In this document: positions 42,645-46,743 of the stretch, one piece after another | How the letters are laid out: each line of letters starts with the position of its first letter | How positions within the stretch are numbered: the stretch's first letter is position 1 | Assembly (NCBI GenBank): GCA_950059285.1 | Contig: CATLTV010000016.1 | Coordinates: 1-46,743, forward strand | Source of the DNA: an uncultured Pseudomonadota bacterium | Lineage (GTDB): Bacteria > Myxococcota_A > Bradymonadia > Bradymonadales > Bradymonadaceae | Direction of reading: 5' to 3' | DNA length: 46,743 bases | Notes under the pieces: model-generated | Databases searched by the model: none | What the model was told of the DNA's origin: nothing | What the model saw: only the letters and a program-made list of their open reading frames with translations | Made by a program: the position numbers and the translations under genes

Positions 42645-44999
42645 TTAGAATTTTGCTTCAGCACCAGCGATAAACTCACGTGCGCCTGTGATGAAGACGC
42701 CATTGGTGGAGCGCGTTGAGATCACGCGTTGATCGAGCAAGTTTTTCCCAAGCATGTAGAAGGTTGTGTTCCACGGGATGTGTGCGTAGGTGAGTCGCGC
42801 ATCGATGCTTGTTCTTGCTGGGATGGGACCACGAATGCCATTTGCGCTGGGTGTGGTGATGTTCTCGATCTCGGAGAAGCTTTCGCTGGTGTAACGCGCA
42901 GCGAGCATGGCAGCAAACCCGAGTGGATGTTCTGCACCAATTTGTGCGCTGGCGCGGTGTTTTGGCACGTAAGGAACGGAGTTTCCAACCAGAGGAGTTC
43001 GCCACTGATCGCCGAGCGTGGCGTGTGTGTAGGAATAGTTCAACAACACGGGGAAGCGCAGGATCGTACGGAAGTACTGGAATGGGTCGGCTTGAAGGGA
43101 AGTTTCAACACCAAGATGGCGTGTGTTTCCTGCCTCAAAAGCCGCATTGTTCTGTGCTGTCAATGATGTGATAGGGAGCGTCAGGTTTTTTGTTTCAATC
43201 CAGAATCCCGAGACATCAAGAGAGAGCTGATTTTTGTCATAAAGTCGTGAGCCAAGCTCGAAGTTCCACGCGTATTCAGGGACGAGGTTGACTTCATCGT
43301 CAATCAGGGAGCTTGCAAGGCGTTCTTCAGGAATCGCCATGCTTCGGTGAGCGCTGGCAAAGATCGTGACATGCTTGCCAAGATCAAGCGAGGAGCCAAC
43401 ACCAGGAAGCAATGAGGTTGATGTATCACCACCATCACGCGGCGGGTTAAAGTCGACAGGCTCCCCATCAAAGGTATCTCGCCAGACACGTCGTTCCGAT
43501 CGCAAGAACTCAAGGCGAACGCCTGGTTCTACGCGAAGCTTGTCTTTAAGGAAGAAGAAGCGCCCAAGAGAATAGGCGGCAAGTGTGCGGCCTGTGCGTT
43601 CTTCATCAAGCAGAGAGGTGCCTGATGGAGAACCTCCATGTTGACCACGTTGTTGTTCGCGATCGATGTCCTCCTGAGAGCCGCGCAGGCCCATAATAAT
43701 TTCAGAGCGTCCAAGTTTTCCAAGATCAAGGTCGAGTGTCAGCCTGCTCTCGGCGCCAAGTGTGCTGTAGCGCTCGTTGATGATGTCTGTGGAGTCAAGG
43801 AAGTACAGTGAGCCATTGTCCTGGGTAGACGAGGTGTTGCCACCAAGAATAACACGCTCGTAGCCATCCAGAGAGCGCTCCTGTCGGTCAAAGCGCTGTT
43901 GCTGGACGTGTCTACTCATGGTGTTTGCCCAGAGGCTAGTCTGGAGCATTCCTACATCGCCAACCACATATGTGTGTTGGATGCTTGCAGCGAGTCGATC
44001 CAACTCATTGCGATCGTAAGGCGCGACCACGGTGTTGGGGTCTTGCTCATAGATGTTTTGTGTCAGGCCAGTTCTTGATGCGCGTGAGAACTCATCATAA
44101 ATGGAGAGTTTTGCGCCAAACCAGGAGCGTTCCGAGGGCTGAAGTCGAAACTTGGCCGAGAGATCTGTGGCGACGAGATCCAGTGATTGAGGGCCTTCAA
44201 AGCGTCTGTGGTGAGCCTCAAAGAGGTAGCCCACCACCCCCTTGGTATCGCCAATGGATGCACCAATGTTCATGCGGCCAAACGAGCCGCCTTGAAAATA
44301 GCCCGATGTGGTGAACGCGCGTGGAGGCGCGTGTGTAATGAGGTTGATCGCACCACCCATATTTTGTGGTCCGTAGAGGATTGAACTTGACCCTGTAAGT
44401 TGCTCGACTTTCTCGATTTTCTCAACGGGTGTGGTGTAAAGAATTGAGCCGTCGAGGTAGGGCGCAGCCGCGATGGCGATGCCATCTTCAAGCACAAGTG
44501 TGTAGGTGCTTTGTGTGGGGGGGAAGCCGCGCATGCCAAGGTTTAATCGCAGGCCCATGGGGTCGACATTGGCGATTGTGACATTGGGCAGGTACTCCAG
44601 AAGTTCAGCGGTGGAGCGTGGCGCGATGCGGTCGATTTGTTTCTGTGTCAGCGTATGAGCGCTGCCTGCGGTGTCACGACGGTCACGTTCATTGGGGCCA
44701 ATAAGCTCAATGTCGAGTGGAAGCGTTGACCAGATATCGAGGTTCACAAACTCGATCAGGGGTGCTTCTTCTGCGATGAATTCGCCTTCAACCTCGCCTT
44801 CAACGAACGTATCGTCCTCTTCAAACTCTTCTTCAGGTTCGATGGTGTCATCGTCACCTTCGGAGGCCACCTCTGTGGAGGGAGCGCTCTCGGCGGCGTC
44901 CGGGGTGTCTTCTGGTTGTGGCGTATCCTGAGCGAACAGGGGGCTAGATGCGCCAAAGATAAGGATAGAGCAAAGCGAGGCGATATGGCTTCTTTTCAC
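42645..44999 (-). CDS. TonB-dependent outer-membrane receptor
   Basis: 784 residues. GTG start, with GAGG seven bases upstream. A signal peptide ends near PLFAQD, and an acidic extension (~25-80) follows. The plug domain has TAELLEYLPNVTIANVD, LNLGMRGFPP and YGPQNMGGAINLITHAPP. The 22-strand barrel ends in ...GAEAKF with a terminal aromatic. It is closest in style to FecA-like ferric-chelate receptors, but the ligand cannot be told. It is downstream of tonB in one iron-controlled unit. Confidence 0.92.
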   Translation of the reverse strand: MKRSHIASLCSILIFGASSPLFAQDTPQPEDTPDAAESAPSTEVASEGDDDTIEPEEEFEEDDTFVEGEVEGEFIAEEAPLIEFVNLDIWSTLPLDIELIGPNERDRRDTAGSAHTLTQKQIDRIAPRSTAELLEYLPNVTIANVDPMGLRLNLGMRGFPPTQSTYTLVLEDGIAIAAAPYLDGSILYTTPVEKIEKVEQLTGSSSILYGPQNMGGAINLITHAPPRAFTTSGYFQGGSFGRMNIGASIGDTKGVVGYLFEAHHRRFEGPQSLDLVATDLSAKFRLQPSERSWFGAKLSIYDEFSRASRTGLTQNIYEQDPNTVVAPYDRNELDRLAASIQHTYVVGDVGMLQTSLWANTMSRHVQQQRFDRQERSLDGYERVILGGNTSSTQDNGSLYFLDSTDIINERYSTLGAESRLTLDLDLGKLGRSEIIMGLRGSQEDIDREQQRGQHGGSPSGTSLLDEERTGRTLAAYSLGRFFFLKDKLRVEPGVRLEFLRSERRVWRDTFDGEPVDFNPPRDGGDTSTSLLPGVGSSLDLGKHVTIFASAHRSMAIPEERLASSLIDDEVNLVPEYAWNFELGSRLYDKNQLSLDVSGFWIETKNLTLPITSLTAQNNAAFEAGNTRHLGVETSLQADPFQYFRTILRFPVLLNYSYTHATLGDQWRTPLVGNSVPYVPKHRASAQIGAEHPLGFAAMLAARYTSESFSEIENITTPSANGIRGPIPARTSIDARLTYAHIPWNTTFYMLGKNLLDQRVISTRSTNGVFITGAREFIAGAEAKF

Positions 45000-45111: not shown

Positions 45112-45131
45112 CAAGATCTGATCAGATCTTG
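45112..45131. repeat. 20-bp perfect palindrome across the tonB stop codon
   Basis: CAAGATCTGATCAGATCTTG, a perfect palindrome with 10-bp arms, includes the tonB stop codon. As RNA it gives a 7-bp stem with a 6-nt loop. It could be an operator or a site tuning tonB and receptor expression. Confidence 0.5.
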
Positions 45132-45991
45132 TAGCGAATCGGGATGGTGAGGCTTTTGGTGTTCCAGCCAAGTTCCTGAGGAGGGGCAGGGAGTTTTTTC
45201 AGCGAGCGAATCGTCTGAATAGCGCCTTCATCCAGGGCTTTATGTCCCGAGGATTTGCGTACTTTGACGGCAATGATTTCGCCATTTTTATCAAATTTGA
45301 CAAGGAGATACACTGTGCCCTGAAGGCGAGCGCGACGAGCGGCTCTGGGCACGAACTTATTCTTGTCGATGGTGGAGAAGAGGAGGCGTTTGTAGGCACG
45401 CAGAGCTCCCTTACGATCGACATTTCCTGCGGGCGCAGAGGGGATATGTTCGGTGACGGCAGCCGTGTCGGATGTCACGGGCGAATCGTGTGTGGTGCTG
45501 TTTCCCTGAGATGCAATGGAGACGCCCTGAGAGATGCTCTTTGCAGGGGCGATGTTTTCAGCAAGCGCGGCAGGTGAGGTAGGCGCCTCGGGGTTTTGTG
45601 TAGCAGCGGCGATGATTTTGAGTTTTTGAGTCTCTTCTGGCTCCTCGGGCTGAGGAGGTTTTGGCTGCTCTTTTTTGGGGGGCTTGGGGTCCTTTTTGAC
45701 GAGCTTCTTTCTGGGAGGTTTGGGTGCAACAGGAGGCGTTTGTGGCACTTCTTCTTTGGGTTGCGTGGTGCTCGCCAGGGGCTCATCTTCCTGGGCGGGC
45801 TCAACCTCGGTGGGTTGAGGAATGATGACAGGTTCGGGGAGTTTGATCGCGACAGGTCTGGCTGGTTTTACCGAGGCATCTACATAATGTGCAGGAGAGA
45901 GCGTATCCATGCCCCAATTCCCAAGCATGGCCCAGGTCACAAACGAGACCTGAAGCAGCGCTGATATAAGGATGGAGGATGGGAGTTGCAT
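45122..45991 (-). CDS. tonB: TonB family energy transducer
   Basis: 289 residues. The N-terminal membrane anchor is residues 5-27. A long Pro/Lys/Glu-rich periplasmic spacer follows (~45-130, with KPPKKEQPKPP), then the C-terminal TonB domain (~205-289: GTVYLLVKFDKNGEIIAVKV, SSGHKALDEGAIQTI, ending in IPIRYKI). It couples the proton motive force (with ExbB/ExbD, not in this window) to the receptor encoded 122 bp downstream. The ATG has no strong ribosome-binding site. Confidence 0.9.
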   Translation of the reverse strand: MQLPSSILISALLQVSFVTWAMLGNWGMDTLSPAHYVDASVKPARPVAIKLPEPVIIPQPTEVEPAQEDEPLASTTQPKEEVPQTPPVAPKPPRKKLVKKDPKPPKKEQPKPPQPEEPEETQKLKIIAAATQNPEAPTSPAALAENIAPAKSISQGVSIASQGNSTTHDSPVTSDTAAVTEHIPSAPAGNVDRKGALRAYKRLLFSTIDKNKFVPRAARRARLQGTVYLLVKFDKNGEIIAVKVRKSSGHKALDEGAIQTIRSLKKLPAPPQELGWNTKSLTIPIRYKI

Positions 45992-46222: not shown

Positions 46223-46250
46223 TTGACAGAAAGTGCGGCGGTGTTATTAT
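46223..46250 (+). promoter_or_regulatory. Sigma-70 promoter of the ncRNA candidate
   Basis: Consensus TTGACA at 46223-46228, a 16-base spacer, and TATTAT at 46245-46250 (5 of 6). The expected start of transcription is about 46257. It is the best promoter match in the window. Confidence 0.65.
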
Positions 46251-46441
46251 TTATATCGAAAGAGCTACTCTAATAGGGGTAGCCACCCAGGTTAACACCA
46301 TCTGGGTGCGGGGAGCTTGCTGGGTGGGCCAGCAGGTGACTCACATGGGAGTAGGGTTGTGCGCGGCACGCTTCAATACATCCCACTGCAGGCTTGGGAG
46401 CTTGCAACGAAAAGAATTTGCCGACCAAAGGAGGTGATCTG

Positions 46442-46486
46442 GTGATAGACAGTATTAAAACGGCCGGTGAGGTGGTGCCATCCTGA
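46442..46486 (+). CDS. Possible 14-codon leader peptide within the ncRNA
   Basis: A GTG start seven bases after GGAGG in AAAGGAGGTGATC (46427-46439), which is perfectly complementary to the conserved 3' end of 16S rRNA. The peptide would be VIDSIKTAGEVVPS. If translated it could act as a leader or sensor. The same 13 bases might instead bind 16S rRNA for another purpose. GGAGG could also pair with CCTCC at 46627-46631, hiding the site. Confidence 0.3.
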   Translation: MIDSIKTAGEVVPS

Positions 46487-46658
46487 ACAGGCCAGTATTG
46501 GCGTTGTGGTCATATGTTGCTCGGGGCAACATTGCATATGACCTGTTAAGCGATACTGCTTCGCGTCAGGAAATCCCAGACACTACCGGCTCCTTGTGGT
46601 TCTTACCTGGTCGAGTAAGACAAAGTCCTCCGAGCGATCATAGGGAGTAAAAACTTTT

Positions 46659-46708
46659 AAAGAAGAAGGGCGATATTGTGGTGAACCACAATGTCGCCCT
46701 TCTTCTTT
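46659..46708 (+). terminator. Terminator of the ncRNA candidate
   Basis: A 23-bp stem (46659-46681 with 46686-46708) with one T/G wobble and a 4-nt TGAA loop. The run TTCTTCTTTTTTC follows, giving a U-tract. It has the same long-arm style as the other hairpins in the window. Confidence 0.8.
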
Positions 46709-46743
46709 TTTCTACCTCGTAAAGCAAAGCGTCCACGGGGCGA

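Follow-up and report, generated by a model that had tools for sequence, protein, structure and literature searches.

A probable Ms_IGR-5-like small RNA in Bradymonadales with an extended Shine–Dalgarno sequence and an embedded micro-ORF

The RNA gene and its neighbourhood

The window, that is, the whole stretch of 46,743 nucleotides analysed here from an uncultured member of the Bradymonadaceae, carries close to its end a structured RNA gene with its own promoter and terminator. Its principal features, with their basis in brackets, are as follows.

46223..46250, + strand: sigma-70-type promoter, TTGACA-16-TATTAT with TG before the -10 element (11 of 12 matches)
46257..46711, + strand: stand-alone structured RNA gene of ~455 nt with a putative 5' end (fold z-score, promoter, terminator, conserved core)
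46427..46442, + strand: extended Shine–Dalgarno (SD) sequence with 13 perfect pairs to the 16S 3' tail, or 16 with two G-U pairs (16S of relatives)
46442..46486, + strand: micro-ORF, GTG...TGA, 14 codons, VIDSIKTAGEVVPS (sequence, frame conservation and a match of model R1, described below, to 46427-46486)
46660..46711, + strand: intrinsic terminator, 20-bp stem followed by a T-run (sequence)

Transcription presumably starts near 46257, and relatives carry a similar -10 element (TTATAGT/TTATACT) at the same location. The RNA as a whole is predicted to fold stably (z-score -6.2). The terminator of relatives is a GC stem placed immediately after the long-range helix A described below. The long near-perfect terminator hairpin of the window (46660-46711) is missing from relatives, and a copy with 83% similarity lies elsewhere in the genome (L003, G000:C174:11154-11205), so that this terminator may be repeated and possibly acts in two directions.

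The genes flanking the RNA vary among relatives in identity and strand. The divergent upstream gene in the window encodes TonB (45122-45991, minus strand, Pfam), and a TonB-dependent receptor (42645-44999, minus strand, Pfam) also adjoins the RNA. One relative has Rho-like and threonine synthase-like genes as neighbours, named by eye from their translations; in the complete genome G008 (L033) a rho-like gene lies ~300 nt upstream of the RNA, and an ORF related to that gene is found ~2 kb upstream in G010. A lipoprotein-like gene (RARQEGEEGNxxFFYxPADxSxxFDRPLAVGS) occurs near the RNA in several genera with changing orientation, convergent in several of them: it lies 309-544 nt downstream at L034, L036, L037 and L040-L042, ~3 kb away in G011, and upstream in G007. 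The actinobacterial loci L224, L234 and L235 share a neighbourhood, with a divergent gene for a Fur-family-like regulator on one side of the RNA and a nitrobindin-like gene on the other (both named by eye).

Given the RNA's own promoter and terminator and the lack of conserved neighbours, the locus is best described as a stand-alone RNA gene rather than the leader of another gene. The original prediction had offered a leader peptide as one reading, which is not supported, as the RNA ends at its own terminator beside genes that differ in identity and strand. The combination of ORF and terminator does resemble attenuator anatomy, and G004 and G005 have in common a co-directional, transporter-like downstream gene. 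However, the genes downstream are mostly encoded on the other strand or vary from genus to genus, and the actinobacterial nitrobindin-like neighbour is also on the opposite strand, which is not a cis-leader orientation. A cis-acting role, in which translating the micro-ORF would attenuate transcription of a gene further downstream, is thus very improbable. In the same vein, rnTrpL/peTrpL and other leader-peptide attenuators are, like the window RNA, small and terminated and contain a tiny ORF (PMC10117765, PMC7298713), but they stand ahead of a regulated operon and are either leaderless or responsive to amino acids, whereas the window RNA has no regulated operon.

An extended Shine–Dalgarno sequence

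The 13-nt perfect match to the anti-SD originally predicted at 46427-46439 is present (AAAGGAGGTGATC), with its GGAGG core at 46430-46434, and so is the GTG at 46442, 7 nt from GGAGG, which opens the predicted 14-codon frame (46442-46486). The source genome's own 16S gene is absent from the assembly, and pairing was judged on relatives in the same family; their 16S 3' end reads GCGGCTGGATCACCTCCTTTA, so that 13 contiguous Watson–Crick pairs are possible. Allowing two G-U wobbles extends the pairing to 16 (46427-46442). The perfect 13-mer occurs once in the window, and with up to two mismatches it is observed 2 times against 1.2 expected. The prediction that this site goes far beyond the SDs of protein genes stood, but the range of 4-6 nt given for the latter had to be widened: the 33 protein ORFs of the window, taken from a rough scan for non-overlapping ORFs with a minimum of 150 aa, reach only 4-8 nt. 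Extended SDs in S. aureus are described as aiding weak start codons (PMC13009471), with which the GTG start found here is consistent.

The stretch GGAGGTGATC is unchanged across 24 aligned Myxococcota relatives, and actinobacterial members of the group introduced below retain it with one G-U. This invariance, together with a complement that spans the entire free 16S tail, would also suit an RNA that uses its 16 complementary nucleotides to titrate 30S subunits or to aid the 3' end of the 16S rRNA, with the ORF serving only to let ribosomes run off. Such a titrating or tail-binding role is nevertheless unlikely, since it leaves unexplained why the helix keeps to one phase of the frame and why, in most members, the in-frame stop lies at a constant distance from the helix.

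Recurrence in Myxococcota

When 46230-46720 was used as a DNA query, the other genomes of the family aligned only near query positions 190-264, corresponding to 46419-46493 of the window, that is, the SD and the frame. A pattern of the SD plus GGTGAGGTGGT was found in 9 of 57 genomes (reversed control 0), and a looser SD-start pattern gave candidates in almost every genome of the family as well as in other families of the class. Across the phylum, AAGGAGGTGATCNNGTG occurred in 31 of 377 genomes (control 0); a match in G050, which sits in apparently ordinary coding sequence, was left out. The 13-mer with its short frame recurs across Bradymonadales and other Myxococcota. The original prediction had named loss of both from an otherwise retained RNA as the outcome that would count against it; homologs were instead found to keep both.

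Model R1, which uses sequence alone and was trained on 24 Myxococcota sequences with the window excluded, matched exactly 46427-46486 (42.1 bits, E 2.4e-11) as a single copy in the genome. Its matches extended to actinobacterial loci, with a best E of 2e-6. Scores for the window and for the strongest of these loci lie well above the controls, and those for the weaker actinobacterial loci do not; the control scores, near E 0.005, are biased upward because the controls were fetched with a related pattern. All of this support is comparative and comes from a sample that includes several fragmented MAGs. By comparison of sequences, the SD and frame at this locus are neither a chance occurrence nor specific to one lineage.

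The frame and its peptide

The micro-ORF reads GTG ATA GAC AGT ATT AAA ACG GCC GGT GAG GTG GTG CCA TCC TGA and ends at 46486. All 46 RNAs of the frame set (33 from Myxococcota and 13 from Actinobacteria) have a start codon after the SD and then a stop after 12-24 codons. The two alternative frames give this length in 9 of 92 cases and stop before codon 12 in 73 of 92. Frame length differs among relatives in steps of three. Every Myxococcota member of the set starts with GTG, a uniformity partly due to search patterns that demanded GTG (A/GTG in the looser one).

Selection on the peptide itself looks weak. Outside the helix, Actinobacteria show no excess of differences at the third codon position (113, 98 and 103 at positions 1, 2 and 3), and the excess in the window's family is mild (44, 42 and 66). 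In genus g4, the peptide frame is shifted relative to the helix, while the RNA retains SD, ORF and helix. These observations weigh against a plain small mRNA, in which the peptide would be the product and the helix and terminator would merely stabilise the message. That reading draws on the conserved optimal SD spacing, start and stop and on a recurrent C-terminal motif (E/Q/K-V-V/M/A, with REVAVR in Actinobacteria), and retains a modest share of the probability. What is conserved appears, from these comparisons, to be the act of translation and the frame more than the sequence of the peptide.

A helix built on the tail of the ORF

The frame is linked to the remainder of the RNA by pairing of its last codons with a region further 3'. 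The elements concerned are listed below.

46471..46477, + strand: 5' strand of helix A, GGTGGTG, inside the ORF (duplex search, phase, covariation)
46481..46486, + strand: 5' strand of helix A2, TCCTGA, including the stop codon (duplex search and minimum-energy fold)
46519..46524, + strand: 5' strand of candidate pseudoknot helix B, GCTCGG (support confined to the family)
46566..46571, + strand: 3' strand of helix A2, TCAGGA (duplex search and minimum-energy fold)
46572..46580, + strand: 3'-side bulge between A2 and A, AATCCCAGA (comparison of relatives)
46581..46587, + strand: 3' strand of helix A, CACTACC (duplex search, phase, covariation)
46630..46635, + strand: 3' strand of candidate pseudoknot helix B, CCGAGC, overlapping CCTCC (support confined to the family)

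Helix A is a long-range helix, one strand of which consists of the final codons of the ORF. In a hand-anchored alignment, 92.7% of helix A cells were paired (76.4% after shuffling), 65 cells had changed on both sides (23 +/- 3.3 after shuffling and 3-8 in slid versions), and the covariation score was 0.570 against 0.260. As anchoring by hand might favour pairing, independent support comes from an unanchored duplex search of the ORF tail against the 3' region, in which the RNAs' own partners beat swapped ones (z -5.1, with 0 of 20,000 permutations as good). In the same search, the stop-codon region paired just upstream of the 3' strand of helix A, giving helix A2, which the minimum-energy fold of the window RNA also includes. 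The bulge between the two, (A)ATCCC, is kept in many Myxococcota relatives and is looser in Actinobacteria.

Helix A keeps step with the reading frame. It begins 23, 26, 29, 32, 35, 38 or 59 nt after the start codon, yet 40 of the 42 RNAs place it in codon phase 2, both exceptions belonging to one genus. The stop codon falls 13 nt past the first base of helix A in most members; the ORF runs well beyond A2 in some lineages (G004, G005, G008 and G030), so the position of the stop is not strictly tied to the helix. Although helix A by itself accounts for the conservation of GGTGGTG, a structure alone has no need of the frame lengths, the helix phase, the start codon or the SD, and the chance that the frame is a by-product of selection for RNA structure is very slim.

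The CCTCC segment had been predicted to mask the SD. It lies at 46627-46631 as described, but masking is not supported, given that the segment varies in relatives. There it reads CCTNNGAGC, and only its GAGC part has a conserved partner, GCTC, with which it forms candidate helix B (p 0.002 in the window's family, 0.07 in all Myxococcota and 0.16 in Actinobacteria).

Translation-gated folding as a working model

Comparison shows that the RNA combines an extended SD, a GTG micro-ORF and a helix on the ORF tail that often includes the stop codon. The idea, contained in the original prediction, that a ribosome-binding RNA with a coupled structure carries a short translated frame is well supported by comparison, through the kept 13-mer and frame, the lengths in threes and the covarying helix. 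Of the two activities that define a dual-function sRNA, a translated peptide and base pairing or protein binding by the RNA itself, translation is the one with comparative support. The window RNA is probably a small RNA of the Ms_IGR-5 kind in Myxococcota (Bradymonadales), with a fold linked to the loading of ribosomes and to translation of the micro-ORF. Helix A would have to open when a ribosome occupies the last codons, so the RNA would have a translated and an untranslated fold. We infer that 30S subunits load very efficiently on the extended SD, and that a ribosome in the course of translating the micro-ORF, or terminating there, would hold the 5' strand of helix A and open the helix, which would close without translation. 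The RNA could thereby signal the availability of ribosomes to its 3' domain, whose downstream activity may be stability, protein binding or antisense pairing.

Relation to known RNA families

Ms_IGR-5 (RF02471) and the window RNA have in common an extended SD (AAAGGAGGTGGTCC in Ms_IGR-5), an ORF, helix A and a terminator-like 3' stem. The family is present in 18 of 24 actinobacterial genomes, and the 13 members analysed carry the extended SD, a frame of 12-13 codons mostly ending in EVAVR or EVAAR, and helix A. Unlike the window RNA, these members have an apparent 5' start ~12 nt before the SD, lack its 150-nt 5' domain and use ATG, TTG or GTG starts; Rfam lists no ORF for the family. The covariance model did not match the window RNA even at E 10, and three relatives, two of them from further families, matched over the full model length with 36.8 bits (E 2e-5), 33.4 and 29.1, all below the gathering cut-off of 45 bits. 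In architecture, the window RNA's group has the extended SD, short ORF and ORF-tail helix of the actinobacterial RF02471 members.

The Caulobacter sRNA CC2171 (RF01867) has alphaproteobacterial members with an identical AAAGGAGGTGATCCAGTG followed by a frame of 21-39 codons and a terminator. It differs from the window RNA in its peptide (VSHCH...TWIVAS) and longer frame. The model (gathering cut-off 75 bits) did not match the window, and matched the G030 locus weakly (28.3 bits, E 0.03), partly through the shared SD. Among alphaproteobacteria, 34 of 385 contain exact AAGGAGGTGATCCNGTG, against 0 in the control; among planctomycetes the figure is 8 of 294, against 1 in the control. A terminator-like hairpin accompanies a short frame at most of the loci examined; the frame of L265 runs to 57 codons and may be an ordinary gene. 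Many of the alphaproteobacterial loci match RF01867 strongly (up to 99.5 bits), and some planctomycete loci do so weakly (37.2 bits, partly via the SD).

Other known RNAs were considered as well. Like tmRNA, the window RNA is structured, of similar length and carries an internal short frame; this identity was rejected, as the locus has no tRNA-like domain or Rfam match and the genome's true tmRNA lies at G000:C9:6722-7129. No Rfam-level match to the 6S type (6S or the RNAP-binding Ms1 RNA) was found at the locus or in the relatives' RNAs scanned. Equating Ms_IGR-5 with Ms1 was dropped, since PMC10454040 gives IGR-5 as a different transcript, ncMSMEG15794c. Sinorhizobium SEP1 (PMC10117765) was rejected as a translated homolog on account of its acidic composition.

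Ms_IGR-5 has been reported in Streptomyces lividans (PMC8079986), S. avermitilis (PMC8780764) and M. smegmatis (PMC10454040), and the accessible portions of these reports state no function. No description of an ORF in Ms_IGR-5 or CC2171 was found in the open-access literature searched. Two earlier Caulobacter ncRNAs are reported as translated (PMC4117421) and a third of the new translated small ORFs of S. meliloti are reported to lie on annotated sRNAs (PMC10117765), the RNAs being unnamed in the accessible portions of both. RNAs catalogued as non-coding appear, on present comparisons, to be built around being translated, and labels of this kind may conceal other translated RNAs. A nearly maximal docking site for ribosomes and a short frame within the RNA turn out to be common to two Rfam sRNA families without known function and to unannotated RNAs of other phyla. 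Translation-gated folding is offered as a concrete mechanism for RNAs found in tractable Mycolicibacterium, Streptomyces and Caulobacter relatives. A more tentative possibility is that Ms_IGR-5, CC2171 and the unannotated Myxococcota and planctomycete RNAs form one ancient multi-phylum class, in which a maximal SD and a micro-ORF would tie the folding of the RNA to translation capacity and make it a trans-acting sensor of ribosome availability. A locus in Gemmatimonas (L242, G418:C60:3827-3889), with AGGAGGTGATCCATTG followed by a 21-codon frame containing GGTGGTCGCC and a downstream AACCACC, is a possible member in Gemmatimonadota.
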